Below are positions 4,279 to 63,634 of a stretch of 64,000 nt of DNA, piece after piece. Source of the DNA: Chrysomallon squamiferum (lineage: Eukaryota; Mollusca; Gastropoda; Neomphalida; Peltospiridae); the NCBI GenBank assembly GCA_012295275.1, contig CM022673.1:265001-329000 (forward strand), written 5' to 3'. The notes beneath the pieces were generated by a model. The model did no database searches and was not told the DNA's origin. It saw only the letters and a list, made by a program, of their open reading frames with translations. Position numbers and translations under genes: made by a program. The number at the start of each line of letters is the position of its first letter. The stretch's first letter is position 1.

Positions 4279-4482
4279 GACTGAGATTTCAGTCATGTTA
4301 GAATCAAAAGTATTTTATTTGATAACAAAGTTGCACTCACACAATTAACTAAATATTTCTTGACTGAGGTTTTAGTCACTTTACAGATAAAAGTATCGTC
4401 TGACAACACAGTAAATCTTAAAAATAATAAAAATAATAAAAATAATAAAAATCCATAATATTCTTTGACTGAGCTTTTAGTC
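4279..4482. repeat. Three spaced copies of a short hairpin motif
   Basis: GACTGAGATTTCAGTC occurs at 4279-4294, a one-arm variant at 4362-4377 and another at 4467-4482. Each has arms GACTGA and TCAGTC or TTAGTC. The flanks (TCACTTTAC after copies two and three) are also shared, so this is a degenerate spaced repeat. It sits 230-440 bases past the KIF17 stop codon, possibly inside its 3' untranslated region. Confidence 0.6.
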
Positions 4483-4543
4483 ACTTTACTGTTAAAAATA
4501 ATGATAGTAAAATTAAAACCTTTCAGTCTTAAATAATAATAAT

Positions 4544-4585
<42 letters not shown>

Positions 4586-4714
4586 CATAATAATAACAGT
4601 AATAAGTACTGTAATGTTAATTTTTTGAGATTTCTGTTGCTTAACACACACACAAGCAGGCTGAGGAGACACATGATATAATACTTTTAAACAAAATTAT
4701 GCTAAAAAAAAATC

Positions 4715-17892
<13,178 letters not shown>

Positions 17893-19921
17893 TTTTGCTA
17901 AAACCAAAATTAAAGTTAGAAGATTTTTTTTTCTTCTTTTAATAACATAATGATAATTACAAATATAAATATAAGATCCATTTACAGTATTAAAATTATA
18001 TTAAAAAATACAAATGAAATTGCATGATTTTATTTTAACATAATATAAAAAAGATTAAATTTTTCTATGTAATATTTTGGTACATAATTTATGAAAATCC
18101 AACTATTATTTTGGAACTGTTAAGTTAAGCTATATAATACAGAAAAAGAAAACATCAATGAAATTTGTTATATAATTAGGTTACCTGTTTGAAATAAAAA
18201 ACGAATGCAATTCGCTGTGTAAAATAGGTTTATTTTCATTTTTTATTAAATACTTTTATTATTATTATTCATATATCCCTCGCAAAAATCATTACATGTT
18301 CACATTGTAATACTAATAGTAATACTATTACTATAACAATAAGACGCTTATTAAGAGGAAGAATATCACACACATACACACATAAATGTGAAAAATACGT
18401 TTGCAACAATCAAGAATATCAAACTAAAATATCACTTTCTCATGAATAAATTCTGATAATAAATTACCGGAAATTTTTTCAATTATTAAAATATCGAAAA
18501 TGTAATATGGGAACAGTATTTGACAGTTGTCTTGGGAACGTATAAACTAAACGAAACATTAAATATTGATTTCAAAATACCTTTAAACAGTTATCTCTTA
18601 TTGAAGACGCCAGACAAACGTTATTATTTTAACAATACAAAGTTTTAGTCAATAGAAACACATGTCTGCGAAGATGCAGTGGTCCATTAATTCCTCAAAA
18701 AATTAAACATCAATCATCATCAACATCTCCAAACACCACCAAACTGGAATCCTTAACTTTTCTCTCATAAAAGATACGCTTCCTGAGACGATAAAAGAAA
18801 CGTTGTAGAACCAGTGTATGTATATTTCAAAGACTCTCTAAACAACTAAACTTATTTGGATTCCTCATCCATAACAAACATATTAATCGCTATAATTTTC
18901 ATCTATCGCTCTAAATTATTTTATAATATTTGGATAACTAGCCAGTATCAATTTAATAATGAATTGTAAATCCATATGAATATGTAGTGTTTACTATATG
19001 CTATAAGTTTTATAACTGCACTCATTTCTCATTTCATTACTCAGTCGGCTGAGTCGGTAATTAAATAAAAGTATAATTACGAAATTGACATAATTTATTT
19101 TACTAACATGTTCTGTATTTAAATATTATTATTAGGAACTTATGCCTTTAACTTAATCTGTATGTCCCTAATCCAGGTGATTTTATTAATGTACAGATCT
19201 TTAAAAAAGGATAGTACTTTTCCAAATCTAAGTTTGAAATCCCACCTTTTTTTTCTTTTTTTCCCCTTAAATTTCATTTGTATCACGTTAGTAGCACAGT
19301 ATCGCATAGACCGTAAAATACAGAACAACCCACAAGTTATATATCAAACATGTAATTTTCATGCAAATTTATTTTTCTTTTATTCATATAGATTGTACGT
19401 TGTAACGTACAAACATATAATTTATGTTTAAAAGTTCGATTTCTTAAAAATAAGATTTGTTCTTTCTCTCTTATTTGAGAGTAACTAATTACACCAATAT
19501 ACATACAAACAGCCGTATACACATACATACACATATATTATATACACGCATATATATGCATATATGTATTTTTAAAATAATAACATAACAAGTGCCTTTG
19601 AAAAAAAATTTGTCTGAAAGAAAATTAATATATGTTGAAATAAGATAACTGTTATATATTTGAACTGAAAATAAAAAATCAAATGACCATTTACATTCCT
19701 TTCCTTTTTCTTAACATTTTAAAATGTCAATGGTTTAACATTAATATATAATACTAATATATTAAGGATATAATTTTAAGAGAAAAAAAAAAATCAGTAA
19801 AACGACAATTATTTTGTAAAACTGACAGTTAATTTTGGAGCTTATAATTGGATCTATTCCTAGTGGGCACTCTCTCCGATGCTCCTTAAAATAAAGCGGA
19901 AATATTTCACAACAAGCAATC
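17893..19921. other. Divergent intergenic region, KIF17 to PSMD2
   Basis: About 2.0 kb separates the KIF17 and PSMD2 start codons, which point away from each other. Promoters and 5' untranslated exons of both should lie here. I see no clear TATA box or RFX X-box. An alternating TATA/GCATATATGCATATATG palindromic patch lies near 19545-19570. Open frames here are short and unlike known proteins. Confidence 0.65.
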
Positions 19922-33414
<13,493 letters not shown>

Positions 33415-37240: not shown

Positions 37241-37550
37241 AAATTGATTTAGTTTTTATTTCAGTTTGTCAAAAAAACTGTCAAATATTTCATGTGTCAC
37301 TCTTCTAAAGCCTTTGATACTTACAGATTAATATAAAACTAACAGCAATTAGAATGAATATAAACATTACTTTAGTCATTCTGAACAACTTGTCAGCTCT
37401 TGTTAGATCTTAGTGGGTCCCCTTTAAACTTTGTAAATGTATTCTTCAGCAATATAATGGTGTTCCAGGGGATTTTGAAAAATAGAATATACTTTTTTGA
37501 GGTTCCTTCAGCAAGGTCTATCAGAATATTATTTTAAACATAATACACTT

Positions 37551-40500
37551 TCATGATAATTTTTTCAACAGTTGCATGGTTTTTCTGGCCTTCATTTTCA
37601 CTTTATCATTAATCTCTTCTTGACTACAGTGTTTGTCTACTGCTGATAACAGCTTCTTCAAATCAGAATGACAGTCTGTGAAAGTGCACAAATTCTGAAT
37701 GATCTTCAGGCAGATGAGAATGTCATCATTTCCTGTAATATCTTTTTCAAGAATGTTTGCAAGTATTTGCATAATGTCCTCTTCTAAAATCTGTTTAATG
37801 CAAAAAAAGATAGCTACCAATAATAAAATAAAAATATCTTATTAAATGTAATTTGTTGATAAAAAATATTTGAAAAACAATAGTAATAAAACTGCTTTAA
37901 AAAATGTAATTATGTAGCACACATTTATTAGCTATTTTTTAGTAAATAAATGGTACACTGTATCAGACTAGTATTCTTTGTTTTTGTTGGATACTACCAA
38001 TGCAGTCCTCAATGGTATAAAATAAATAAAAATTATTAATTGGTCTTGTGTGCAATATGTATTTTATTCTTTTAGTTAGATCATGTGTTTTATAGATAAA
38101 AATTTTAAAATATTTTAATCAGACATACTTAAGTTCTTTTTTCTGAAAAGTGAAGAAATTAATAAATAACAATAATAAAATGACTAACAATGTAAAATTT
38201 TTAAAATAATTAGTATGTACAAGCCATAACATATATCAACAGAACCTGTATGTTGTTTTGAATATCTGAATTTTCTATAAAGTGCTAGGAATTAAAAAAA
38301 TACTAATAATAAAATGCCTGAAAATGTTAAACAAAAACTGCACATCCAAGACCACTCAATACACTAGGTTATACATCTTAATGGTCTTACCTGAAGAATT
38401 TGATTGGATTCTAGGCTAAATGAACTGAAAGCCAAAAGAAGTTGATGAAGGGTTAACTTCACATTGAACTGGCCCTGGAATATGTAATTATTCCTCTTGT
38501 CCATTGCAACCTTTTTCAGCCATGATGTAATGAGACCAAGAGTTTCTTAAAAATAATTATAGTAAAATAATTATTTGAATTTGATCCTTTTCATCAAAAA
38601 CAATTAAAATATTTGTAATATAGAGGAAATTAGAAACACATAAGATAATTTGTTTTAGAATAAAACAATATACTTAAATAGATAAAAACAACAACCTCAG
38701 CCATGTGTAATGATGTCATTTCCTACAAGGAAATATGGAATAATCCATAAAGGAATGAGCTGGATCATTATAATCTTATTGCTTGAGTTTGTCCAAAACA
38801 CTTTTACATCAGAAAACCTAAAATCTTGGCATAGAGGCATCCAGATAACTTGTTATTTTATTGCAATTTTCTGTTGTAAAGCCTATTACGTGTAAATAAA
38901 ACAACTTAGGAGGGCAAAGCATCTATTTTGGCTATTTGTTCATTCTGTCAAAGAGCAGAAAATGTTGTATTGTATTGATGTATTTCCTGTTATATGTGAC
39001 AAAATGCAATTTGAGACTGTTTTATGATTGAACAGTTAATCAAACTTACTATCAGAATGAAACACTGAAAAATCATTGGGATCATTTTCACTAATCTCCA
39101 AAAGGCTTATCATCACCTCAAGTCCACCATATTTCAGGATCTAAATGATAAAAATAAAAATGGAATGCTAAAATTTAATAAAAAGAAATTAAAAATATTT
39201 GAAGTCCAACTTCAAAGTATTCCCCTGTACATAGATTTTTTAATTTTTAATAAATATCTTTCTGTTATGATGAAGATTTTTCTTTTGCATAACATGGATT
39301 GGTAATAAAAAAGTATAATGTAACACAGTTACAGTATATCATACAAATGTACAAAATAAAAGTTAAAGTTAAGCATATGGCAGAACTTTTTATTCTCACT
39401 GAACAATCAGTATGAATTGTTTTAAATATTTAATGATTTTATAACATCTGGCTTCTCTTTGAGTATTACAGTCTTCACTTTATGTCTGGTATTTGTATTT
39501 ATTTATATTTTGATATTAAAAAGCATTTTCATATTATTCCAGTTACTGTCTTTTCAAATTTTGAAGAAAAAATGTAAAATATATTCTGTGGCCAGCTGTT
39601 CTGAAGTCAACAATTTAATAATAAAATCAAAATTAAAATTCATGTTCATATTTTTGGGCTTTGATTGAATTTATGATGTCATCTTTGCTCAGTTGTGATA
39701 GTGCTACAGCCTTCAATTTCATTCAGCTGGCAGCAATCATATTACTCAAACCTTTGCCAGAATGGCATATAATCTGCATGCTCATTAGAACTAATAAATG
39801 TTTACAAAACATATTATTACCATGAATATTAATGATTATTTTTAATTTAAAAAAAAAAAATGAAATTATGACAGTAACTTGTAGTAAAAGAAAAACCCCA
39901 AAACAATAATGATAATGTGAAAAATGATGTTTATTTATGTATAAAACAAATTGATATTGCACAATGAAAACAGTTTTACCTTTTCTTGACTAAATTCATG
40001 CAAAGCAATCATATTAATTAGCTTTTTCATATGATTTAAAGGTAATGAAACATCAAATTCACCAATAGTTTCAGTGTGGACATGACTCTCTATAGTACTG
40101 GCTTTTACAATCCATTTCAGCAACAAAGATTCCACATCTTTAAAATAAAAAAATATAAATAATTTATTTTAAAAATGTGACCTGGAAATAAAACAAAAAT
40201 GTTTAATTTTTATGTTTTTTATTATTTAAAAACAAAATATAGGATTTAATACTATTTTTTTTTTTTACATTATGTGTTGGTTAATATATTTCTTACTAAA
40301 GTATTAAAGGAAGTCATTTAAATTTTCTTATTTTTAGCAGTAATACTACTTACTGATTGTCAGATTTCTTGGAATGTCTAAGGGCTTAGTAAAAGAAAAT
40401 GTTTTCCCAACTTTGTGGAATAATTGCCTAAGTTTGTCAAATGAATCTGATAAAAACTGAAAAAAAACAACCAATAAATAATAATTAAAAAAAACATAAA

Positions 40501-43500
40501 CAAAAACAGTAACAGTAACAAAACTTTGGTATGACAATGAACAAATATTAAAGCATTCTTGATGCTCTCCAGAAATACAGCTATAATATTTTTTAATTTG
40601 TAGAAAACTAGTAACCAGTTACAGAATAATACACTAAAATAACAGGTTTGTGAGGATGATATTTTTCTTTTCTCATGAAGTCTTTTTATACTGAAAATCA
40701 TTGGTAAATTGATGTGGTTACTTTACAGTGGACTACTCTGTAATCAAAAAAAAAAAAAAAAAAATAGAACCCCCCAAATATTTAATGTTTCTTTCAAAAT
40801 GATTTTATAATATAAAAGAAAAATATCAGCAGTATTATTGTACTGTAACACTTCATTTTCACATTCAGCATCAACACATATATGATTCTGTCAAGATTAA
40901 AAAGAAGGGATTCAGAATTGTGACAGTAATAATGAACTGTGAATGAGAAACACTCAGTGAGAAAAATACCAACCAAATCTTTGACATCAGACTCTAGCAA
41001 GATGTGTCTGATGATTCCATCTTCCTCTTTGTAGGACAATGTAATCTGATTGTTGTTACTGAGGCTTGTTCGAAGTAGGAATGTCCCAGCAGGTTGTAGT
41101 TCCAGTAGATCATTTGCATCATCATATGATAAAGTATCATGGAAATAGGCCAAATCACAAACATCCTTATTCTTACCATCTGTGCATAAAAAATATTTTA
41201 TGACTTGAGCATTTGCTGGTTTAAGAAAATATACCAGATTTTACTTTAATATAAATTATGAAGTTATTTCATCAGATCTAAAATTAACACTGAATGGCTT
41301 CCAATTTTAAAAAGCTATTTTAACACTGTTTCTTTCGTCAACAAATGAAGAGTTTTTGTCTATAAAAGTGAAAATATAATTAATTAAATTTAATATAAAA
41401 GATTTCATTAATTTGGAAAATATAGTTTTTCTCTATACAAATTATAATGTTTAGCCCAGACTTATGTTTACACTGTGATTAGTTAATGCACATAATTACT
41501 ATTACCAATTTTCTTCAAATATATATTTTTAATACTGATGAAATAAAAAAATAAGTCAAACAATTACTATTGCTTTTCATCTTTCAGTGAAATATAATAT
41601 TTAATAACTATTGCAATAATTGTAAACAGAAGGCTGAGTAACAACAACAATCATAGAAGAAATACCCTGTAAAACTAGACAAATAAACTGAAAATAATAA
41701 TACCAAAATTTTACCCCTTAAATTTGTAACATTTTAGAAATGTAGTATTTAGAGATTTAAAAAATTACATAGTGACAATAAAATGCTTTACAATCCTATA
41801 AAAATAACACAAAATATAAGTAAAAGAGCGTACCAGAATAAACCAGTTTGTAAATCAAAGCAGACACAAATCTGGTTTCAGAATCATATGTGTCCTTCAT
41901 CAAATATTTCAAAGTCTGCTGATCTTTTATGCTGAAAGTCTATTAAAAAATAATTAGAAATAAAATAAAATAAAATATCTAGAAATGTCCACATAATTAA
42001 ACCTATGACAGTTAAAATAACAAATTGAATCAATCAAAGCAAATGAATATTATAATTTATTTTTAAAGTAGTAAAATAATTTAAAATTCAAACATTTAGG
42101 GATAAAAGAAGGAATCAATCTTACTGCAATGACACTATGAAGATAGTGGTTTGAGTGATTTTGTTATATGTCTTTGATAATTTAAATTTATTATTTTCAA
42201 ACACTGATGATTCAAATAATTATTTGCAAAATGCCCCACCATTCCATTTCATTAATTTTTTTTCTTCTTTTTCTGAACCACATGATAATTTATGGACAAT
42301 TAATATTTATTTACTTGAATAAAATATTCATTGTCCAAAATGTTTTGTATTAAATTCAATATTATGAAAATTGCTTTGAATACTGAGAATTAAAAACTAA
42401 TGATAGATAAAGACTTGATGTTTTATTTATTTATAATTGTGCATATTCTTTCTTACTTTTTTCCCCACCCCAAATATGAATGCATAAATAAATTATTAAG
42501 GAGCCGTTTCATACTTTGATATTAAATACAACTGTCTAACCTCTTTCTTTCGAGATAACAGCAGATATATGAACAGTCCATTAAGCACTGCTAAATGGGA
42601 ACAGTGGATGGTAATTTTATCTTTGCTGCCTCCTGGTTTTTCTATCTGAAAGCTCAAGCTCATTGTGTTGGTGTACATGAATTTTGTATCAAGACAACTT
42701 AGAAGAAAGTTATAACATTGGCCAGCTAAAAAATTACAAAAAGATATGAATAATAACTTTTTTTTTTTAAAAATAATCACAATTAAGCTTCACTGATTAT
42801 AATTGTAAATTATTTGTGGTTTAATTTTATTAGTGACCATAATGCCACTGGGATAAGTACAGTTCTTTTGTATGCATTTGCATACAAATATAAAATTAGG
42901 AAGAAATCACATATGAATCTATGCTATGTGACAAAGTTTTAACAAAGTTGTAATGCTACAAAGATAAATAAAAGAAATCTTTGAACAAATAAATAAACAT
43001 TAAATTAAATAAAGAAATAAATAAAATAAAGCAATAGGAATTAAATAACAATTCTTCTAAAGTCATATAATAAAAGATATGAGTTATATAAAAAAAGAAG
43101 AAAGGTAAATTTTAAAAACATTGCTTATTATGATAAAAGAAATTTACAAATATCAATTGAATCATTTTTAGTACTGCCTAATAGCTGAGAGATTAATATA
43201 AAAAATAAACAAATACAAACCATTCAATGCTAGTCGCTGAAAACAAATCATGGCCTCTTTCTTTTCTTCTAGATAACCAGTTTCCAAAATATTCACAATA
43301 AAAGCCAAAGCTTTCAGTGATAGTAACTACAAAGAGTAACATCAAGTTAAAAAAATTAATCTATTATAACAATGAATTTAATTATGCTGTTAATACAAGT
43401 CTTTGATAATGTGAACAAACATCCTAGATCACATCAGTATGATTGATGTATCTGTTTTACACATCAATTAACCTTTGCTAATAATAAAATATGATTTCCA

Positions 43501-45843
43501 ATAGAATAAAAAACATATAAGAAAGTCTTGTGACAATAGTAATAATAATTTTTTATTAATGAGTTATTAATGTTTTACTAACAACCTGTTCTGAGCAAAA
43601 ACTTACATTCTGACTTATTTCATGTGAAAAAGCCAACGAACTGAGAGTTTTCACAATGTCTGACACACAAATGCACCATTTACAATTGAAACATCCAATA
43701 TTGACATTTCTGTTCTCACTTTTCATGGCATCCATAAGCCAAACAAGTAACCACCAAAATGATTCCACTTCTGCAATATATTAAAAGAATAAGATATTTA
43801 AATATATCTTAAAGCACACAAAAAAAAAAAAGAAAAAAGAACTAACTAAATAAATAAACTGTTTTTAAGTCACCAAATATATTGCTTAGTTGTGTATAAA
43901 ATTTTGGTGAATTCATACCTAGAGTTTTAAGAGGATCCACTTAATATTTTTCAATGAATCTTTTACATGCTTTTTTAAGAAAGAAGAGCAGCAACTTTAA
44001 GATCTTTGATACACTAATCTTATGAGCTTGTTTGGAATAGTAAACAGCTATAGAGACCACAGTAGGAATTAATCCTGCATTAGACAGATGAATCTACATT
44101 ATGATTTTCTGTTCTAGTAAATGTTCTGTTTCTTTACATTATAAAGTTCATATACAAATGGTGCTACTACATTAATTATAATAATAATAAAAATAATCTT
44201 TATTCAACATTTTAAAAACAAATAGACTCTAGTTTCTAAGTCTTCTGTAGTTCATATGGAATATTAAAATATCCCAACACAAATAAATTTACTACTGGAC
44301 TTATGTACACTGTAAACAAAATGTGAGGCATAATCTACATATATTAATACAGTAAATGAAAAACAATATATTTTTATATTCTTCCTGATAACAAACCAAT
44401 ATTAATCTTGATAATGATGCTATTTTTCAGATATCAAATCTTAGCCTGACACAGCTTATCAAATTAAATTGTACCTATTATGGTAAATAAAATAGAAGCA
44501 TTTATTTTTTTATGGATACATACAATGATTTAATTTTCAATTTTTTTTTTTTATTGTGGCTTATAATAAATTATAAAAACAGTATAACAAGTTTGTGAGC
44601 ACTGATAGTACATTTAAATATGATTCCAGTGAAAATACCATTTTCAATCAGAGAAATGAGATTGATGAGCACTCTGTAATTCTGAATTGATAGTCCACAA
44701 ATAATGACAGCCTTTGCTTTTGTCCAAGCTTTCTTGCACTGCTTCAAAGTTAATGAAACTAACTATAAAAAATAAAAAAATTTAATAATAACCATAAAAT
44801 AAATAAATAAATAAAGAAAGAAAGAAAGAATGAAAGAAAGAAATGACAGAAAAAAATGAAATAAAATTTTATTAAAAAAGTAAGTAAATTAAATTTAAAC
44901 AAACTTGTTAAATAATTATTTATTTTTTCCAGCTTGTCATATTAACACATCATAGCTTATATCATCAGTATAAAACAATTCAAACCAAATGAGATATACT
45001 AAAATTGAAACAATAGAATAAAACAAATCTGTCTGTAAAACAGCTGTAAACAAAAGATCATGCATTTTAAGTTTTTGACATTGAATATTTTTGTTAATAA
45101 ACATCAGATTAATAATGCAATGTACTTATAATCAATTAAACAAGGTTTACTATTGAGAATACTGAAGGATCAAGTTCACCCCAATAATCATGAAAAAAAC
45201 GGAAGATGGTCTTACAGCATGAACAAATTATTAAAGATGTCACAGCATATTTTAAATTTAACAGTTACTAGGTGTCAAAAATAAAGTTTTTATTTAATTT
45301 ATATTTTCCAGCACTGACTTGAGAAGAAACAAGATTAATACAGATAAAATATCTTGAAAATATTCATTTTAATTTCTTAACTCAATACTGACATTTTTAG
45401 TTAACTTAATTTTATTATTCACCTTTATACCAGTTTCATCTTGCAGGTAATATTTGCCATTTTCTGTCTTATGTAAACTCCACAAAAGCTGAATAATGCA
45501 ATCATCTAAAAACTGCAACAAATATTACAATAAAGTAGTTTGAATAATAAATAATTTATTTGGGGGAAAAGCTCTTTTAAAACACAATAAGAAAACAGAC
45601 ACAAAGAAAAATCCCAACAAACCAAGAAAGTAAAAATCACAAAAACATAAACAAAAAAAAAAAAACCCAAAACAACCTCACAACCCCATGAAACAAACAT
45701 TTGCAATGTTTTATTCTTCTAAGTAAAGAAAAAAAAAATCTTCATATTCTTTTATTAGTTATTTTTTATTGTCATATGTCACAATATCCAAAAACAATAA
45801 AACAATAATACAAAGTATATTTAGGCCACTGGTATTTTAAAAT

Positions 45844-45884
<41 letters not shown>

Positions 45885-48800
45885 CTATTTTCATTAATTA
45901 TCTAAAATTTCTTTTTTTCCCTTTGAAAACAATTAATAACATAGAATTGAATTTTATATTGTGTTCTTTAATAAAGAAAGTACAATAATCTACCTCACAT
46001 TTGCTTAGAACTTCCATAAAAACATCAGGAATATCATCTGTCATAAATGGCTGCAATGAAAAGGGAAGAAATAAAGAAATACTTGACTTTAACCATTTAC
46101 TACATAATTTACACAGTATTTTAAATCTGATTACAAATGAATGAATGCTTTAAAAATATATTTCAATAGTTTTTGCATTTCCTAATGTAATGATGATGTC
46201 AGAAAAAAAAAAAAATAATAAAAAAAATAAGCAACACACCTAATTGCATGGAAAACATTATTGCAATTAACTTATTGTTTCCAAATGCAAGTTATTTGAA
46301 AGTGGCAGAGATATCACAATTTTTTTTTTTTTTTTTTTTGTTTCTCAATGTACACTACATTTATTTCTGTTAATGTTTCAACATGGTATAATAACCCATA
46401 ATTCATGATCCTGAATTACCAGATATGGATTAAGTCAAGTCAAGTTGAAACACTATGGCAATTAACATCCAAGTTTTCTGTCATTTACATTATTAGTATC
46501 CAGTTGTAAAAATAATTGCAATCAGTTTTTACCTTTATAAGATTTTCATGTAGTGGAACATAAACTGCCAAAACATTTATTAGATTTGCAGCACACATCA
46601 TGGCTGTCTCTTGTTTATTTGAAGAATTTACATGCTTGAGCCACCAAACAGCTTTCTCTGTATTTAGAAAAAGGGTATATTATTTGGCAGTTTGATTTCG
46701 AATAAGTGTGTTATTACTAATATCTAATTTAAACTTTATTTGTGAAAAATTACACTTAATTTTACTTTTCAATATTATTAAAATTTTAAATGTTTTTTCT
46801 TCTTTTTTTCAATTTTTTTTACACACTGAAATTTGTCTTTCAGTTGATCTCTCTCTCTATATATAAAGAAAAGATATACAAAATTAATAATAATAATAAT
46901 TAAAAAAAACAACAACAGATAAACAAACAAATAAATTAAAATATCCATAATTGCACATGTTCAATAAGGAGTTAGTAATCTTGTTGACTATTATATATTT
47001 ATACCAGAAAGTTTTTCTTCACACATAAGATTTGCTACGTTTTTCCGACTGCAGATATGATGATTGAAAACCTCTTTTAAAACAATACATATCTCTGCAT
47101 TAATACCCTCTGTCTCCTCGGTTATACACTGAGTATGTTGGTCTTTCAGTTTTGAAATCAATAGTCTAAGCTCCTTCAGAAGCGGTTCTTAAAAGAAAAT
47201 GAAAATCAGTAATTTAATAACAAATACTGAATGCAATGACATTAAAAGTACAATTTATTTTACACTTTATAGTAATGCAAATAATGGATTACCAAAAAAT
47301 TATACACATAAATCTATATAGTGGTTGTGACAGATAATATTTACTTACCTTGGGCCTGATGTGCTAACTGTGTCTTCAGACTGTCATCTCTAACCAAAGC
47401 TAATGGAATAACATATGTAACTGCACTGGCTGTTAAACTGGCTTCTTGATCAATAAGCATTTTGGCACTTTCCACATATCCATTGTCACAAGCATAATGT
47501 AATGGTGTTTTTTCACCTTTTCCTTTAACACTCAAAGAAAAACCTTCCTTTGCCATTGTTTTGAGAATTTCAGTTTTTCCATATTTTGCAGCAATACATA
47601 TGAGTGGTTCTTTAATTTTCATTGTTTTCTGCATTGTTTTCATTGTTTGTGGGGTAGAAACATAATCTACACCACACGGTGAATGTGAGTCAAACTTGCG
47701 GTTCAATTTCTTATACAGTAACAGAAATGCTTCCTTGTTCCCACTGATTGTTGCTCCATATAAGGCTTTAAGCAGCTCATTGTCCGTGAATGACTGATAG
47801 TGCAATGTTTTCTCACACAGTATTCCATTAGTATTCCATGATGCCCAGTAAAGAAATTCTTCACATTTCTTTGACTTGTCATTAATAAGTTTTGTCAAAC
47901 TTCCATGTTTAAGGAATGTCTTTGCTTTCATATGTTTAAATAGAAGATTAACAAAATCTGGCAGAGAACAAGCCTGATGGCTACATATGAGTGACAAATC
48001 AGTGCATTGTTCTCGGACTTCATTAGCAAATCGTACTGCCAGATATTGGTAATTTTCTTCTGCAATTTTAATCAGAAACCAGTTATCAGTATCTAGCATG
48101 TCTGCTTTATTAACAAGTCGCACACGCTGGTATATAAAATCAAGACTACAATACTGAAGAACAATTAATGGACTGTAACACCCAATGATATAAGCAATTG
48201 CATCAAAAATTGAAGGATGCCTTGCTGTTATAAAGGAACTGTTAGATACTAGCAAACCTGAACAAAGACAAGCTGCAGCATCTTCAATATCTTTGGGTCT
48301 AGCCATTCTAATGCCTACTTGGTTCAAAAACCTGTTCAGTTTTGATGGGAGTGCACAAATATCTGATTCTTTAATCGTACCATTTCCATGGATAAGCAAA
48401 TAAAAAACTGCCCTATGATTTTTTTTTTCAATGAACATGTTTTCAATTATGCTTACCAAAAACTGCTGTGGATCTGAAAAAAAGTCAACTGGATGGGACT
48501 CAAAGTCACCACTTTTACTTGTGTCAACAAAGAGTCTGCAACATTCTGGAAATCCAATTAGTTTAGCTGTTTCATTTACAATACTCTTCTTGACTTTTTC
48601 GTCCATATCAATGTTATGGTAACGAAGATGACTTTGAAGAATTTCTAATCTTTCATTTTCTGACAGGTAGTGTTTTTGTGTGAGATCCAAAACACAATTT
48701 TTTGTCATAAAATATGATAGTGATTTTCTTATCCTAACATGAGCTTCTGTTAGTAAACAGCTTTTTGTTGTTATAATCAAATATAACCTTGTGTTTTCAA

Positions 48801-51800
48801 TAGCAATTTCACTTTGTTCTTCATATTTCCAATGGGCTATAAATTTATCTATAACAGTTTTTACTGAGTCAAGTGCAGCAGCATTAACAAGTGAAGACTT
48901 TCCAAAAAGGTCTTCACACAATATTACAGTTTTTTCTTCTGGGTTCCAGAATTCAAGGTCGCGAATTTCTCTCATAATCACTGGGTGGTAATCTTTTTGC
49001 ATCAGAGTCAGAACTATCTGTCGACTCATCAATGTTTTGCCTTCACCTGGACCACCACTTATAAATAAACATCCATGCTGAAATATAAGTTTCTTCGCCT
49101 TGGAATAAGCACCAGTTTCAACAAACAGATCTGCATCTAGTTTTAATTCTTGAATTGTTTGCACTAAAATAAAATGTATTAAAGTAGTTTTAATAACATT
49201 TGCTAATATTATAGGCATAAATTTTTTTAAAATAGAGAAGTCTTTCTCCATAAATAAAGATTTATATTTTAACAATTAAAAACAAGAACGTTAAGTATCT
49301 GGCATTTTATGTAAGGTACAGCCTAATTCTAAACTTTGTAAATATGCTGTACACATTCTGAGCACATATTTTAAATTTTTTTTTTTTAAATAATTGTTAT
49401 GATGAATTTATTTTGTCTAACAGTAATACTTTTTTTTTTTTTTTTTAAATTCTTGTTATAATTTTTTTTTACCATAACAGCATATATAAAAATAACATAC
49501 AAACCTTCTATGTTTCTGGCTTTAAATTCAGTTACATTTTCTGAATTTTCGGATGTATCAGCTGGCAAATAATCAGAATCTAGAATAATATTCACAATAC
49601 ATTAAACTATTTGGGAACATAAAATAAAATATATATGAAACAAGGCCAAATTTATAATAAGAAATCTTTTAGCAACAAATTATAAATTATATACAAATGC
49701 ATAAAAAAAACAAATTAGTTGCACTTGATAACTGGTATATTCTTTTGCCCTTAAGTGTAGTTAAATAAACATTCATTGCGATATATCAGTATATTCTTGA
49801 ATTAAAAGCTCATTCATGTTTATTAACATCTAAAAATTCAAATTTTTTTTACTTTAATTATTTTTAAAATACATATATACCATTCAACATATACAAAAAC
49901 AAAAATAAAAATAAACTAGCTATGGTTATGTTAGATATTAGAGATACTTACCAGAAAGGAAACAGTGTTCTGTATCAACAGGTGTATTGATTATTTTTTC
50001 AACTGCATTTAAATATCGCCGTTGTCTGAGACCTTTTATCAGAACTTCAAAGCCAAAATTCTTTCTCTGAACTATTTTTCTTAAAAGAATACGCATTCTT
50101 GTTTTGTTGGTGTTTGGATTTGTGCTTCTTATTTCATCAACATCATCCCAGGTTAAAGCTCCTTCTTGATACACGAAATCAATGATGTCATTAGCGTTTA
50201 TTTCGTCTAGCAAATATAAATGACATTTTCGCAGCTTTTCTTGATTTTCTGCCCACTGCTGCTCATTGGATGGTTCTTTGGGTCTAGTTTTTGGTTGTAC
50301 ATACACTGCTTGTCTACAACCAGGAATGTTGTTATCTGAAAATAAATATTTTAATAATCATTTCTCAGTTTTGAGTTTTTGCAGGATAACATTACATTTA
50401 TAAAAATAATTGTTTTACAAATGAATTTACCCTTTCAGATTTAACTTAAATGGTCTGGTCTATGATGCTGTATTAAAATATATAAATCAGTAAAAACAAC
50501 AACAAAAAAACAACGAATTTTTCAGTTTTACACAGTAGATAATTCAGTAAATTTAGAATAATCATTATAATGGCTTACCCTGTCAGGAACGCGCATTCCA
50601 AGCATGACCTTTGATAAGCCAATTGTGGGAGTCAACGGCAATACGTCAGCAGTTCCAAGATTATTATTATTATCATTACTGAAATTTTTTGGAACGACCT
50701 CCCCCACCCACAACTAATCAAAAGAGAAAAAAATTTGTATCTAACAAAAGGAATATATAATGACATGCATAATAACGTTCTATAACATTTACAGCGTTCG
50801 TTGACAAATTATAATTACAGGCTCCTTGCTACATTTTGTCTTTTCTGCCATTCTCACTTTCTAACCTAATCTGGTAGCAACAGTAACCTTTTTCTATTTT
50901 TAGAAACGTCTGCTGCGTCAATTAGCTTTTTCGCGCCAAATCTAAAAATAAGGTAAAAAACGTAAAGAAACATTTAAGATTCAGATTAATATGTATGTAT
51001 GTATAACAAGTATGTATAACAACCGTATAACAAGTCTCACAGAAGGACAGATTTTGCCCACTTTTCTAAAATTTCAATACATCAGTATTTGCTAAAGACT
51101 GATTCTCATTGGTCAAAAGGTCTGGCAGTAGCAACAAATTATATTGAATAAAAAAAAAAAAAAACAACAAAAAAAGAAATTTTTTTTTTTGAGAAAGTCA
51201 TCTTTATTTTACACAAAGTTATATTCATTTTTCGATTTTCTCTTGGTTGAGCGTTGCATTTTTATTTTTTTTTTTTTTTTTTTAATTCTTTTACATGTTT
51301 ATAACTTGTCTTTTGTATTTAATATCACTGTCAGTTACAACAGTTCTATACAAGATACATGTCGTGTATGATGTACTAAGTAACTAAGGCATGTGGAGAT
51401 AATAGCAAAGCGCGGCGGCTATTTTGCCCTAATTGGCTGTACCACTTCAACCATATCACGCTTGAGGATGTGCACCGCTTGCTAGCTTTTCATCGCCTTT
51501 TATTATGTTATATCTGGGGATTTCACCATAACAACACAGGCGGAAAATCTATAAGCATTCTCGATTTTGAATATTTCGATTCGGTTGAGTTTTTCTGTAT
51601 CTACGATGATTTTGTGAAATATAAATTTTCAACACGCTTGAATCACTTAAGCTGGATATATGACATGAATGAAAAACAGTTGGACATTAAATTGTTTTTC
51701 ATCTTATTGTTTTTGAAATTCTATCAAGCAGCTGCACGTATGCTAATTGTTATTTTTACCATTTGAAACATGGTCAGTTCAGTTTCTTGTCTTGTCTTAT

Positions 51801-53265
51801 GTTTGAGAATGTAAACTTACTCTTCTTAAATTACATATAGTTAACATAAGGATGATGGAAAAAAATGTGACTAATGTTATAATGGTATTTTCCATCCACA
51901 GTTGTCTGGAGTCTCGATCTCTTCGGATTTTAAAATAATAAAAATTGCCGCCTCTTTCCAAATCAAACAAGTACATGCTACTGTATTCTCTGTTGATTTA
52001 ATTTTTACAGTTCATTCAACCAAATTTTGCATTCCTTTTCATAATTTCTTTTGATTTTTGATTTTCTTTTTGGTTTGTTGTTGATTTGTTTCTTTATTAT
52101 TTGATATTGCCCAGAATTTTTTTTTAAATGTAGCAGTTTTCGGTCAAAAACCGCAATTGTCTTCAATTGTGTTTAACTGATCGAAAATAATAACCAATTA
52201 CAGGCTTTGAAATTACTGCTACTTCCTTAATATTTAACACAACTAGTTGATCTTGATCTTAATATTAAACACATTTACTTGATCAGGGGTTTGAAAATGT
52301 TGTCCACATACCACGTATACTGATTTATTTGTCTTAAAAATGTATATTAATAAATACGACTACCATGCCAGTAACCTTGTCTGTTGTTGACTTTGAGTAA
52401 ATGAGCTTCACTGTATTGTAAATGTTTTATACAACTAACGTACAAAGCTAGATCACTTCAAAAGGCATATAAAGAATTTTTAGGGCAAAAATAGTTTTTG
52501 TTTTTGTTTTTTTTTCTCACAAAAGTGAAATGCATGTCATTCTTATTCCTTTCTTTTATTAACGTAAATAATACCCCCCCCATAAAAAAATTATTTCATT
52601 TTTAGACATATTAAAATTAATTTTCCTTTATTTAGAAATATGATGGTATTGATTTCATCCATTATGTATTTAATTAATTAATTTTAAAATTTTAAAATTA
52701 ATAATAATAATAATAATGATATTATTATTATTATTATTTTTATTATTATTATTATTATTATCTTGGGCACTATTACTATTTATTTACTGGTTTATTATTA
52801 TTTTTTAAATTATATTTTTAATTTGTTATGAAAAAATAAATAAAAAGAAGAATTCGATTCTAAATTGATAAATTAGTAATCTACAAGATGAAGGTTGCAG
52901 AGTGGACTATTATATTTTTCTTCTTGTTTGTACGATTTTTATCCCCCAAGAAGTTTCAACATTTTTATTCCTCACCCCCATACGCACACACACGCATCCT
53001 CGTCACAAAAACACAAATTCGTGGAGAATATTTTTCTTACCGTACATGTGTAGTTCAGAATCACTACAAAAGAAAGAAAAAACAAAACAAATTGTTACAA
53101 CATCAATATTAATGTTTACAAATTGTTTCATACGTAATTATATGACTGTAAGCTAATTATTTTAATGTTGCATTGTTAACTTACATAATAAATTACTAAG
53201 TTGAGGATATATTAAAAATGATAAAACATTCGTTAATACCTCTCATTTTCTTCGCGGTCATCCAT
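37551..53265 (-). CDS. CARD / STAND NTPase / ankyrin / SH2 protein, putative innate immune signalling scaffold
   Basis: Not a named gene I recognise. Exons on the minus strand: 53240-53265, 53041-53063, 49952-50335, 49505-49579, 47349-49163, 47005-47187, 46533-46657, 45994-46050, 45423-45512, 44639-44762, 43607-43770, 43221-43326, 42541-42725, 41834-41939, 40974-41179, 40354-40456, 39980-40137, 39050-39140, 38391-38545, 37551-37790. Every junction keeps phase: 4416 nt, 1471 aa. Domains: CARD-like death fold about 45-131; STAND-type P-loop NTPase from about 170, with Walker A GGPGEGKT (206-213) and Walker B VILCEDLFG (249-257), closest in look to the nSTAND3 group; two or three ankyrin repeats about 688-746; helical ARM/HEAT-like segments with repeated VxxWWL/ESFWWLL starts; SH2 about 1163-1258; a helical tail to 1471. 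Plus-strand neighbours are unrelated. I infer a cytosolic sensor or adaptor that oligomerises through the NTPase and reads phosphotyrosine. The N-terminal two exons are inferred from splice sites and phase alone. Confidence 0.85.
40354..41179 (-). other. SH2 domain split over two exons
   Basis: Exons 40974-41179 and 40354-40456 code residues 1155-1257. The pattern is SH2: AYFHDTLSYDDANDLL (helix A), PAGTFLLRTS (strand B with the phosphotyrosine-binding Arg, residue 1191), NQITLSYKEE (strand C), IIRHILLE (strand D with the conserved His, 1213), then SFDKLRQLFHK (helix B). The usual Trp at the domain start is replaced by Ala-Tyr. Both main phosphotyrosine contacts are kept, so binding is likely, though untested. 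Confidence 0.85.
45847..45882. repeat. (AAT)n microsatellite
   Basis: About 12 AAT units inside an intron of the CARD-STAND gene. Confidence 0.9.
47349..49163 (-). other. STAND NTPase and ankyrin exon (1815 nt)
   Basis: One long exon holds the nucleotide-binding core and the ankyrin repeats, residues 170-774. It begins with a short helix, then GCLFISGGPGEGKTLMSRQI (Walker A), YHPVIMREIRDLEFW, TVILCEDLFG (Walker B), TRLYLIITTKS (sensor-1-like strand), then a helical region typical of the STAND lid and winged-helix part. The ankyrin part has EPLICIAAKYGKTEILKTM and EKTPLHYACDNGYVESAKML. One unbroken long exon among small ones is common in animal STAND/NLR genes and could reflect an ancestral retrocopy or domain capture. 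Confidence 0.85.
49952..50335 (-). other. CARD-encoding exon
   Basis: Codes residues 17-144 of the CARD-STAND protein. From about residue 45 it fits a six-helix CARD: LRKCHLYLLDEI (helix 1), NDIIDFVYQEG (helix 2), ALTWDDVDEIR (helix 3, the usual Lt-ee--eI pattern), TRMRILLRKIVQRK (helix 4), FGFEVLIKGLRQRR (helix 5), YLNAVEKI (helix 6). A death-effector or pyrin fold is the alternative, but the helix 3 and helix 5 patterns favour CARD. The acceptor requires a phase-1 upstream exon, which the 23-nt microexon provides. Confidence 0.8.
50336..53040 (-). other. Intron 2 of the CARD-STAND gene
   Basis: This 2.7-kb intron holds a stretch at 50578-50713 with an open frame and a good donor (GTAAGC), whose phase does not fit the CARD exon. 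It also holds an unusually GC- and CpG-richer patch at about 51400-51560, and the (AAT)n/(ATT)n inverted repeat at 52697-52760. It could contain an alternative promoter and first exon. Confidence 0.55.
52697..52760. repeat. (AAT)n-(ATT)n inverted repeat
   Basis: A run of AAT units meets a run of ATT units with only GATATT between them, so each strand can fold into a long AT hairpin or cruciform. Confidence 0.85.
53041..53063 (-). other. 23-nt microexon of the CARD-STAND gene
   Basis: A strong acceptor (TTTTTTCTTTCTTTTGTAG) and donor (GTAAGA) enclose 23 nt. The exon before it ends in phase 2 and the CARD exon starts in phase 1; 23 nt is exactly what joins them. The junction reads MDDREENESDSELHMYDNN. 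No other upstream combination I tried kept the CARD frame open to an ATG. Confidence 0.7.
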
Positions 53266-59500: not shown

Positions 59501-62500
59501 GGTAGTATGTGTTCAAAAGAGCTTGTGGATCACCTGTCAAGATTTTGTTTCCTAAAAAAGAAATAATCAACAGTATGGTTGGATGGAATAGAAAATAAGT
59601 TACATTATTTAGCCTTTCAGATTTTAAAATATTTAATAAAAATGTTTTGGTTGGAAATAATAGCATAATAAAATAGAAAAAGTAACCCTTGTTCTTGAAC
59701 TCCTTTTTGAATTTTATTGTCAAAACTTTATTATTAACAAAATATTTGGAAATACTTTGTATACAAAATGTATTTTGGCTACTTGTTATGAATATTTGTT
59801 TTCTTGTTCTGCTAAAGGACTACCAGTCTGTTATGAAGGCTGAAGAAGAATATTTGACAACTAGAACCAAGGAACACGAACAAGTTCTTGAGAAAATGAA
59901 AGCTGAAGAAGATTTAATGATTCAGCAGAGAGAAGTAAAGATACCACATCTATGACTGCTCAGTGCTTCACAATAAACAATTTAATTTTTATAAATTATT
60001 ACTCTTATTTGGTTGTCTTGTGTATATGTCTGTATATGCATGTGTATGTGTGTGCATGAAAATATATAAAATGTGAAGTTAATGAAATTTCAAACTGATA
60101 AAAGTGAATTTTATTGTTTTATATAGATTAAATCAAAAAAAAAAAAAAAAAGAAGAAATTTAAGGAAAATTAAAAAAGGATAAATTAATATATATTTTAA
60201 ACTTTTATATGAGAAGGACAAATAGGTAAACTATTTTTTAACTTTGATAACAAAACACATAAAAATGTGATCAACTAATACTGTTACCTTCTGTTTGTGT
60301 GTGTTTGGATGTATGTGTAATGAATGCCTGTGTATCTGTGTGTATGTACATATGTGCACACAAAAGTATATATCAAATCCCACATTTCCATTAGGAATAC
60401 AAAATACATATTTTTTGTTATTGACAGATGGATGATCAGAAATTAGCTGCTGAAGTTGCACAAACAGAAAGAAAATTAAATGAAGAAGCAAGCAAATTTG
60501 AAGTAATTTCTGTTTTCTGTTTAACTATACAAAACAGATAACACTCGTATTACTACAATAAGTGAATGAGAGCCCTGTTTTATTTAATCTTCATCTTATT
60601 AGCAATTACATAATATATTAACTTTTTCTGAATTAACAGAAGAAACAAACCAAAAAATACTTCCTACAAAAAACAAAAAACGAACACAAAAAAAACAAAA
60701 AAAAAGCAACAAACAACAAACAAACTATACTGAACTCCCTCCTGAAAAACAAAAACAGCAAAACTTAGTTAAGAAAAATAATATAAATGTTTCAATAAAA
60801 TAATAATAACAATGAAATGAATTATATGTATGGAAATTACTCTGTAATTCAGAATAGAGCAAGTATGTATAATGCTTTAAAATGCTATTGATTTTTGGTT
60901 TTGTTTTCATGTATATATTTTAAGATTATATGCAGTACAATAGTCTATTTATGTGTATTTGTCAGGAAAAAATAGCCAAAATGGTTTCTGATTTGGAGAA
61001 GGAACAAGTGGAACTGCACATACAACAAAGGGTAACCCAGGAGAAACTTGATGAAAAAAGAGATATGTGTGCTTTAAAAATACAGAGCTGGTACAGAGGA
61101 ACAAGGTGTGTAAAGCATGGTTAAACTTTATTTCTTTATTTTTTTTAAATTAATTTTCTTGTTGTTTTTTTTTTTTAATTTTAATTTTAATTTTAATTTT
61201 ATTATTTTTATTTTTATCATTTTTGAAATAAATAAGTTAAATTTATATTTAGTGGAAGCCTGGTAAATCATGTCGAAACAAAAACTATTTATTTTATATT
61301 TTAAAAATTAATTAATTGTGTCATTTTGGATATTGTATAAATTATACATTGGAGTCTTTTTGAAGTGTTATTTAAATTACTACAGCAGGGAACTGCTGAG
61401 AAAAGTGTTCTGCTGGGGATAGTGTTAAATAATGGTAGCCATTTGAAAAGGAACATTTGAAAGAAATCAGTTTAACATGGGTGTTAATAACTAAAGAAAA
61501 ATCAAGGGACTTAAATGTTTTGAGAATCTTGTATTAATTCTGTTACTAAATAATTTAGAGATTTATAATTTATGATATATCTATATTAAACATGCCAATT
61601 ATTTATATACATACACATTCTCATAGGCATATGCATTTATACATATGCATACACATGCACATACAAATATTTTACATAGGAAAACATTTAAGAACTTGAA
61701 AATAATTATTGTTAATAAGAATATAATATACAACAAAAAAAAAAGACTAAAAAATAAGAGTGCTTTTTGTCTTAGGGTAAGGAAAATCTATGGTTCTGAC
61801 TTGAAAGAAAAAAGACTGAATAGACAAAAGATGAAAGAATTAGAGCGAATTAAAGAAATTGATATTGAAATAGAAAGAAGGAAAGAGGAACAACGAAAAG
61901 AAGAAGAAGAAAAAAGGTATTTATAAAACTGTTTACTGACATATTTTTATCAGTAGGAAAGACATGAAGTTTATATATGGTAGATAAATAAATGCTATTG
62001 GTTACAATCTATTGTTAGTTAAATTCAGTCACAATCTGAGATTGGAACTGGTCATTGATAACTCAACAAATGAAATTTTGGATTACATCTCTTTGAGGAA
62101 TTAATTTTAGACTTTTTGAAAATTCAAAAGAGGACTTCTCCTAAGTATTATATTTATTTGAAATTTTATTGCTGAAATTCCAGTTAACTGGTTGAACTAT
62201 ATTTTAATCTAGGCAGAAACAGGAAGAAGAAATTCAAAGGCAGAAGGCAGAGGAATTGATGAGAAAAGAGACAGAGAAAAAGAAAAAAGAAGAGCAGGAA
62301 AAGAAAAAGAAAGAGGAAGAAGAAAGAAAGAGAAAAGAAAAAGAAGAAAGAAAGCAAAAGGAAGAAGAAGAAAAGAGGAGAAAAGAGGAAGAAAGAAAGA
62401 AAAAAGAGGAAGAAGAAAGAAAGAGACAAGAAGAAGAAAAGAACAGAAAGGAAGAGGAAAAGAAACGAAAGGAGGAGGAAAAGAAGAAAAAGGAGGAAGA

Positions 62501-63634
62501 AAAGAAGAGAAAAGAGCAAGAAAAAAAGGAAGAAGAAGAAAGAAAACGAATAGAAAAAGAGCAGGAGAAAGAAAGGAAACAAAGAGAGAAGGAACAAAAA
62601 GAAGAAGAAAAGAAAAAAGCTGAGGAAGAGAAGAGAAGACAAGAAGAAGAAAGGAAAAAAGCAGAAGAAGAAAAGAAAATAGCAGAAGTTCAAAGAAGAA
62701 ATGCAGAAGAAGAGAAATTGAATTTTGACAGAGCTATAAAAGAAGTAGAAAATGTGAACCTTTCAGAAAATTTTGAAATTAATAACAAATTGGAAATACA
62801 GCAAAAATCTGATAATTGTGGAGATGAAGAGTTAGTCAAAATAAATAATTCTAAATCAAAGAAACCAGAAGAAAGTAACGAGAAGACTAATTCTGAACTG
62901 AGGTCTGAGCTGGATAGTGACAAGAAAGTGAGAATTAGTCAAGACTTTATGAGAGTTAACAAGTCAACAGAGAGGGGCTGGGAATCTGTCGATGCTGCTG
63001 TAGTTGCTGATGGTGGGAAAACAACAGTGGAGATGAGCAGTAATAGTCTTCCATCACATCTGGAGGCCAAACGATTGACCTGGATTCAAGAATGTTTACC
63101 TTGGAGGTGTGTTATTTAGTTCATTGTCACATAAATAATAATCAAATGTACAGAATGATGCTTATGACTTATTACGTTTTCAAGAATTACATTAATTATA
63201 TGTTTATCATTTAACAAATATGATCGAACTGCAGTGAAAGGGTTTGACTTTGCTTTCAGAAAGAAGATATAACTCTCAAGCTGAAATACAGTTCGACTAT
63301 AAAGAAAAACTCATTTTGATTGCATATGGATTGCATCTGCTACATAACATAGCATGAAATTTTGTATCATATTGAATAGGTTATCACTTTTATTATTAAT
63401 TACCATAGTATTTTAAATTTTATAATGATCTGTAGTTTTTTTTCTCTTTGCTGATAATTCATTTTCAGGTTGAGTTTAGTTCTCTTTTGTTTCAGTAAAG
63501 TTAGTAATGAGCCGTGGAAGCTGAAAGCTGGTATAAAGAAGAAACCAATGAGGCGTCCTCATTCAGCCAAGAAATTACCTCCCATAACAGAGGAGATTAT
63601 CACTGCAGCAGCCAGGACAGCCACTCTGAGACAG
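56551..63634 (+). CDS. LRRIQ1: LRRIQ1-like protein, 5' part (gene continues past the window)
   Basis: Leucine-rich repeat and IQ motif protein 1, a cilium/flagellum-associated family. Exons: 56528-56727 (coding from 56551), 57264-57369, 57767-57843, 58408-58585, 59310-59419, 59818-59934, 60428-60502, 60966-61105, 61776-61916, 62213-63106, 63496-63634, all in phase: 718 codons so far. The N-terminus is acidic; NDEAIIEAEIQQQLQ resembles the human start, so translation may begin at the in-frame ATG at 56584 instead. An IQ motif IQSWYRGTRVRKIYG, split by an intron, starts near residue 319 and should bind calmodulin. A lysine/arginine/glutamate-rich helix follows at about 375-545. LEAKRLTWIQECLPW matches the conserved LRRIQ1 block just before the leucine-rich repeats, which should lie beyond the window. 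A donor GTGAGT at 63635 shows the gene goes on. Other IQ/coiled-coil proteins are possible, but the RLxWI...PW block favours LRRIQ1. Confidence 0.88.
59156..59240. repeat. Imperfect (CA)n/(TACA)n tract in LRRIQ1 intron
   Basis: Mixed CACA, CATA and TACA units. Similar tracts recur in this intron set (60290-60365 and 61605-61670). Confidence 0.8.
62256..62710 (+). other. LRRIQ1: Single alpha-helix (ER/K) region and all-purine tract
   Basis: The coding strand is almost only A and G for about 450 bases and codes runs of Glu, Lys and Arg with E-K/R pairs spaced three to four residues apart. This favours a stable single alpha helix rather than a coiled coil, because hydrophobic heptad positions are lacking. 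The DNA itself is a homopurine-homopyrimidine tract. The long open frame on the other strand (Phe/Leu/Ser-rich) is a by-product of this composition. Confidence 0.85.

Follow-up and report, generated by a model that had tools for sequence, protein, structure and literature searches.

Introduction

The NLR proteins and Apaf-1 share a general plan in which a CARD is combined with an NTPase of the STAND superfamily and with repeats. In bacteria, the nSTAND3 NTPase of Avs5 (AVAST type 5) is flanked by an effector at the N-terminus and by repeats at the C-terminus; according to passages of PMC12931631, changes in its Walker A motif abolish immunity, the Walker B Glu can be replaced by Gln but not by Ala without loss of immunity, and activation requires the C-terminal repeat domain. 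Among animals, passages of the respective sources describe domain shuffling in amphioxus innate receptors (PMC2575513) and lophotrochozoan RLRs (PMC8998645), four NACHT proteins in Aplysia (PMC9334734), and TRADD-N proteins that combine death-fold domains with C-termini differing from one protein to another, SH2 among them, for which the cited figure legend names Amphimedon (PMC8195603). Because TRADD-N proteins carry both, the pairing of a death-fold domain with SH2 has a precedent (PMC8195603, in the part available). The subject of the present analysis is a predicted gene that would join a CARD, an nSTAND3 NTPase, ankyrin repeats and an SH2 domain in one polypeptide, located in a stretch of 64,000 nucleotides from the gastropod Chrysomallon squamiferum (GCA_012295275.1, contig CM022673.1, positions 265,001 to 329,000 of the forward strand; hereafter the window).

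The original prediction, made from the letters of the window, had proposed the order CARD, STAND NTPase, ankyrin repeats and SH2, which is confirmed by Pfam on the spliced model, and had held that no such protein was known to be described. None with a CARD-STAND-ANK-SH2 order was met in the protein searches or in the searches of openly licensed literature, where no paper was found to contain all four of the whole words CARD, SH2, NACHT and mollusc; of the two openly licensed full texts naming nSTAND3 or PF20720, neither is titled for animal nSTAND3-ankyrin genes. The best explanation, to which a slightly better than even probability is assigned, is that of one gene encoding a CARD, an acidic linker, an nSTAND3 NTPase, a few ankyrin repeats and a tail in which two-exon units recur on either side of an SH2 domain, to form a STAND-class switch. 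At the level of sequence, this reading draws on the domains and their order on one strand, on phase-compatible splicing, on the homology of the CARD and of the nSTAND3-ankyrin part at a second locus, and on the likeness of the units that flank the SH2 domain.

Gene model

One minus-strand gene model was rebuilt from the window, from an ATG at 53265 to a stop codon at 37551, with 20 exons, 19 GT-AG introns, compatible phases throughout and no internal stop (4452 nucleotides including the stop codon, 1483 residues). The number of exons and the in-phase junctions are those originally predicted; the length is not, the earlier value being 1471 residues because some splice choices differ. The features of the gene are as follows.

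53240..53265, minus strand: exon 1 with the start ATG (tentative, 8 full codons); its donor ranks 85th of 799 and the next intron is 176 bases long
53041..53063, minus strand: exon 2 (tentative, 7 full codons), preceding the longest intron (2705 bases)
49952..50335, minus strand: exon 3, CARD, phase 1-1; Pfam CARD at 1.7e-8 in the open frame
49505..49579, minus strand: exon 4, acidic linker of 25 residues, phase 1-1; 1 of 459 matched pseudo-exons attains its codon score
47349..49163, minus strand: exon 5, nSTAND3 P-loop NTPase, middle region and ankyrin repeats, phase 1-1; nSTAND3 at 3.9e-26 and Ank_2 at 5e-12 in the open frame
43607..47187, minus strand: exons 6-11 (47187-47005, 46657-46533, 46050-45994, 45512-45423, 44762-44639, 43770-43607), tail common to the Gigantopelta protein, from the alignment to it
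43221..43770, minus strand: exons 11+12 (43770-43607, 43326-43221), repeat unit A, phases 1-0-1, from shuffle comparisons
41834..42725, minus strand: exons 13+14 (42725-42541, 41939-41834), phases 1-0-1; exon 14 like exon 12, exon 13 like no long exon
40354..41215, minus strand: exons 15+16 (41215-40974, 40456-40354), SH2, phase 1 to 1 over the pair, 345 bases, model residues 1178-1248, from Pfam and structure alignment
39050..40137, minus strand: exons 17+18 (40137-39980, 39140-39050), repeat unit B, phases 1-0-1, from shuffle comparisons
37551..38545, minus strand: exons 19+20 (38545-38391, 37790-37551), repeat unit C, phases 1-0 then the stop codon, from shuffle comparisons
37255..37260, minus strand: AATAAA 3' of the stop codon, not diagnostic, such words being frequent here

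In all 20 exons the codon score was higher in frame than in both other frames, a comparison in which most of the alternative frames hold stops, which are penalised, and the training set includes exon 5. Splice sites were scored by a leave-one-out procedure with matrices built from the gene model's own sites, and ranked from 1 to 160 of 799 for the donors and from 11 to 136 of 780 for the acceptors. Poly(A) words were discarded as a test of gene boundaries, AATAAA or ATTAAA being present in 19 of 19 introns.

Two further stretches were excluded from the model. An ARM-like open frame (LIPTVVSIAVYYSKQAHKISVSKILKLLLFFLKKA) at approximately 44074-43966 on the minus strand, between exons 10 and 11, meets a stop, and is possibly an alternative terminal exon or a decayed repeat unit. 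A small candidate exon at approximately 41359-41326 preserves the frame.

Domains of the predicted protein

The Pfam matches of the spliced model above the gathering cut-offs were nSTAND3 (9.8e-26, residues 183-350), Ank_2 (1.1e-11, 687-747), SH2 (1.1e-8, 1178-1248) and CARD (8.2e-7, 49-121), and the same domains were obtained with the single-exon frames. The ankyrin repeats of the original prediction are thereby retained, as is its CARD-like fold: the open frame of exon 3 scores 34.8 bits with the CARD profile (cut-off, 23.9), its closest solved relative by sequence is MDA5 (chain positions 92-187, 1.1e-6), and its fold model is all-helical, with a predicted local distance difference test score (pLDDT) of 67 from a single sequence. 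When that model was compared with known structures, a designed protein came first, followed by Apaf-1, MDA5 and other CARDs, which make up most of the 50 matches shown, none of them at E<=0.001.

The nSTAND3 match of exon 5 (PF20720) reaches 92.1 bits, against a cut-off of 27.2, and covers positions 1-154 of the 155 of the profile. Both the Walker A (GGPGEGKT) and the Walker B (VILCEDLFG) motifs of the P-loop NTPase initially proposed are present, the corresponding motifs of the Gigantopelta homologue being GGPGEGKT and AILCDDIFG. The NTPase also matches the PADLOC candidate-defence model PDC-S73 (6.2e-12). The NACHT profile remained below the cut-off on the spliced model (19.2 bits versus 26.7) and was placed at residues 77-116, within the CARD, and neither LRR, nor WD40, nor a tyrosine kinase domain was among the Pfam matches at E<=1. 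Membership of the NLR (NACHT-LRR) class was therefore rejected, ankyrins being found instead of LRRs, as was that of the SHARK-type ANK-SH2 kinases, for which the kinase domain is missing among these matches. The description of the core as NLR-like holds for a STAND-type NTPase accompanied by a CARD and repeats, but not for the type of NTPase, which is nSTAND3 with a sub-threshold NACHT score, nor for the LRRs.

The SH2 profile is covered from position 1 to 57 (34.6 bits) by the unspliced frame of exon 15. The match is lengthened because exons 15 and 16 are spliced, so as to cover positions 1-74 of 77, with 35.5 bits for the whole spliced model and 39.0 bits for a spliced piece of 127 residues (cut-off, 21). 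The domain itself matches known SH2 structures, and the Arg and His contacts described as intact by the original prediction were found in the FLVR-type sequence FLLR and in RHIL, respectively.

Repeated units of the tail and the SH2 cassette

Global alignment of the 10 pairs formed by the long exons 11, 13, 15, 17 and 19 gave three that beat shuffled sequences, with the score being reached by 0 of 3000 shuffles for 11-17, 1 of 3000 for 17-19 and 9 of 3000 for 11-19. Six of the 10 pairs of short exons (12, 14, 16, 18 and 20) were under 0.035, including 12-14, 12-18 and 12-20 (0.003-0.009), 18-20 (0.024) and 14-20 (0.034), with 0 of 25 control long-by-short pairs at or below 0.05. With two-exon units, 3 of the 15 comparisons were under 0.01, namely 11+12 with 17+18, 11+12 with 19+20, and 17+18 with 19+20. 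The counterpart of exon 11 in Gigantopelta was also found to resemble exon 17 of the window globally (0 of 3000). The phases are 1-0-1 in 11+12 and 17+18, and 1-0 to the stop in 19+20; phase alone is no marker of the repeats, because the 13+14 and SH2 pairs share the same rhythm.

Thus, the SH2 domain appears to sit between similar units as a removable cassette, with exons 15 and 16 running from phase 1 to phase 1 so that their removal leaves the frame open. Exons and cassettes of phase 1-1 are the usual signature of assembly by exon shuffling, a signature also borne by the CARD exon 3, the linker exon 4 and the NTPase exon 5.

Relatives in Gigantopelta and in the same genome

The sole homologue of exon 5 at E<=0.001 among 6642 candidates was a Gigantopelta aegis protein (53% identity); by this one relative a gastropod source is suggested. 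This uncharacterized protein of 897 residues (LOC121380464, here P0001) aligns with 51% identity over model residues 171-1015, corresponding to exons 5-11, so that the alignment spans six splice junctions and joins the nSTAND3 domain, the ankyrin repeats and the tail through exon 11, in favour of one gene over that part.

The genome searched is made up of 22 contigs totalling 404.6 Mb, in which the window corresponds to C9:265001-329000. nSTAND3 is abundant: 73 places, including the window's own, match the exon-5 protein, with 73 of 153 candidates scored, and all of the 22 profile matches scored, of 163, were above the cut-off. Contigs C14, C10, C11, C4 and C3 contain many nSTAND3 places, often clustered, and some of these places fall within one very long open frame each (up to 3756 residues). 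It looks as though an Avs5-type NTPase had expanded in an animal. Ten paralogue loci were read, and 5 of the 6 NTPase frames scanned there have ankyrins in the same frame.

With all 19 candidates scored, the genome gave 14 CARD matches at E<=1, the window's own among them. The best of the others (4.8e-17) lies on C7 at 21.75 Mb, in locus L030, and starts 1 kb from an nSTAND3 place. In L030, a CARD frame (Pfam, 1.6e-6) is found upstream of an nSTAND3-ankyrin frame in the same order as in the window, and the two CARDs are 38% identical over 99 residues. Splice sites for phase-1 junctions are available, with one of the two candidate CARD acceptors being of phase 0. The apparent CARD-nSTAND3-ankyrin gene is compact (L030:4240-8943), with a possible short ATG exon, a CARD exon at approximately 4394-4693 and a long NTPase-ankyrin frame from 5390. 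Since both the CARD and the nSTAND3-ankyrin part have homologues at L030, a chance neighbourhood of CARD and NTPase is unlikely and was rejected. By sequence, then, the CARD-nSTAND3-ankyrin combination is predicted to occur at least twice in this genome, and the novelty of the present gene lies in its tail with the SH2 domain. As a separate observation, four CARD-like matches lie within about 20 kb at C6:33242729-33263308, in frames of 262-301 residues on a contig without a listed nSTAND3 place; they are perhaps a tandem CARD gene group.

With respect to the tail, all 15 matches found at E<=1 in the animal's own genome fall inside the window, with no paralogue. SH2 places number 68 at E<=1 (72 of 72 candidates scored). 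When their distances to the 74 listed nSTAND3 places were taken, a list for which 73 of the 153 candidates had been scored, the window's own was the one SH2 place closer than 100 kb, and the second nearest lay at 187 kb. A tblastn search of the SH2 exon against the 10 paralogue loci, 10 kb each, gave no match.

Weighing the alternatives

Several observations weigh against a single gene with this architecture. In the core, a CARD was matched beside 1 of the 10 paralogue loci read, and 2 of the 14 CARD places, the window's own included, have a listed nSTAND3 place no more than 3 kb from their start, the other 12 being at least 128 kb from any such place or on a contig without one; the AlphaFold model of exon 5, based on a two-row alignment, has a pLDDT of 40 and is unusable to identify helical or winged-helix domains. 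In the tail, no ARM/HEAT match was obtained with Pfam, and the search of solved structures returned importin-alpha at E 0.59 for the first part and nothing for the second, leaving the ARM/HEAT-like helices of the original prediction without profile support. Among the repeat units, exon 13 resembles no other long exon, and the 16-20 pair, which includes an SH2 exon, gave an incidental match at 0.016, a reminder of chance levels; the local comparison of single exons yielded 6 of 66 pairs that did not exceed 0.02, half of which joined unlike exons, and the Gigantopelta counterpart of exon 11 is locally at 0.051 with exon 17, does not match exon 19 (0.16) and matches exon 7 at 0.022. The SH2 exons have the weakest acceptor (136 of 780) and, after exon 16, the weakest donor (160 of 799), and exon 16 has a negative codon score, which 78 of 244 pseudo-exons attain. 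Finally, P0001, the only database homologue, lacks a CARD or SH2 match in its annotated model, and the SH2 half has no relative in two protein database searches, one of which overlaps the P0001 match by about 135 residues yet missed P0001, so that the sensitivity of that search is limited.

The absence of a database homologue of the SH2 half would fit two adjacent genes, namely a CARD-nSTAND3-ankyrin gene whose tail would end near exon 11, with a second gene, bearing the SH2 domain, lying downstream of it in the same orientation. The annotated P0001 ends about 30 residues past the matched stretch, near the exon-11 border, and the ARM-looking frame at approximately 44074-43966 could be an alternative end. 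However, the exon pairs flanking the SH2 domain are alike and have matching phases, the junction phases fit across the proposed break, introns 11-16 (216-618 bases) are no longer than introns 6-10 (347-868 bases), and the end of P0001 may correspond to a donor read-through, which would explain it and leave that protein neither supporting nor denying the SH2 domain; two genes are judged improbable. That the gene is one, but its SH2 exons form a cassette that is spliced alternatively or seldom used, or the domain is structural and has lost phosphotyrosine binding, is contradicted by the conserved Arg of FLLR and His of RHIL and by the codon score of exon 15, reached by 0 of 27 matched pseudo-exons. 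It is favoured by the weak acceptor and donor, by the open frame left on skipping exons 15 and 16, and by a Tyr that, on alignment with a haematopoietic SH2 structure, takes the place of the Arg of its 'ISR' sequence, a usual phosphate contact in SH2 domains; such a condition is regarded as unlikely.

A further explanation is that the protein is an ordinary member of the expanded nSTAND3-ankyrin family, in which SH2 was gained by chance without a new signalling role. It is favoured by the abundance of nSTAND3 places and by the well-documented shuffling of repeat and death-fold domains, in which TRADD-N proteins have SH2 as one of their partners, in the portions available of PMC8195603, PMC2575513 and PMC8998645. 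Exon 5 is, however, 53% identical to its Gigantopelta counterpart and only 26-28% identical to the best-scoring other copies in its own genome, so that it seems to represent a distinct lineage of some age and not a copy made recently, and this explanation is considered somewhat unlikely.

Proposed mechanism and its implications

If the one-gene architecture is adopted, the protein should, by analogy, be a nucleotide-dependent oligomerising switch with a CARD output. The NTPase would keep it inactive with bound ADP, while the ankyrin and tail region would sense or restrain. The SH2 domain may dock the protein on a tyrosine-phosphorylated receptor or scaffold, thus localising or licensing the switch or, as is equally possible, it may read phosphotyrosine of the protein itself. 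Nucleotide exchange would then lead to oligomerisation and to clustering of the CARDs, which would in turn recruit a CARD-bearing effector.

The link between inflammasome-like assembly and tyrosine-kinase signalling drawn by the original prediction can be reasonably inferred from this arrangement. It is a more doubtful proposal, regarded as unlikely, that the protein is a phosphotyrosine-gated switch of CARD assembly, in which an SH2 cassette in the sensor tail lets the output of tyrosine kinases license or localise CARD polymerisation; if true, one molecule would do what separate kinase, SH2 and CARD adaptors do in vertebrates. If expressed as modelled, the gene would show how a single cassette whose end phases match can rewire a STAND immune switch, and would allow the control of CARD assembly by phosphotyrosine to be tested directly in a single polypeptide.

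Surroundings in the window

Kinesin motor exons are found on the minus strand of the window (Pfam Kinesin, 2.1e-39 at 15197-15625 and 1e-7 at 17635-18000), while the plus strand carries an exon of RPN1/RPN2 type at 22569-22886 (5.6e-25); because of them the window looks like an ordinary animal chromosome. An open frame of 303 residues rich in Lys, Glu and Arg is present at 62208-63116 on the plus strand, with no Pfam match at E<=0.01.

Comparison with known systems

P0001 resembles the predicted protein in its nSTAND3, ankyrin and tail regions (51% identity), and differs from it in its length of 897 residues and in that its annotated model matches neither CARD nor SH2. L030 has a homologous CARD and a homologous nSTAND3 in the same order, but many more ankyrin matches, after which the open frame ends, with no SH2 match in the 10 kb read. 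With NLRs and Apaf-1 the general plan is shared, and the CARD fold model matches the CARD of Apaf-1, whereas the NTPase is nSTAND3, with NACHT below the cut-off and neither LRR nor WD40 matched. TRADD-N proteins, in turn, resemble the predicted protein in combining a death-fold domain with a C-terminal SH2 in an expanded family of immune type, their difference being that an nSTAND3-ankyrin core goes unmentioned in the part of PMC8195603 available. With Avs5 the nSTAND3 domain is shared, but, in the passages of PMC12931631, the effector is Sir2-like instead of a CARD, and the repeats are of the TPR, Sel1-like or PPR type. The locus thus belongs to a genome in which many nSTAND3-ankyrin genes are predicted, in an animal, around an NTPase related to that of the bacterial anti-phage Avs5.

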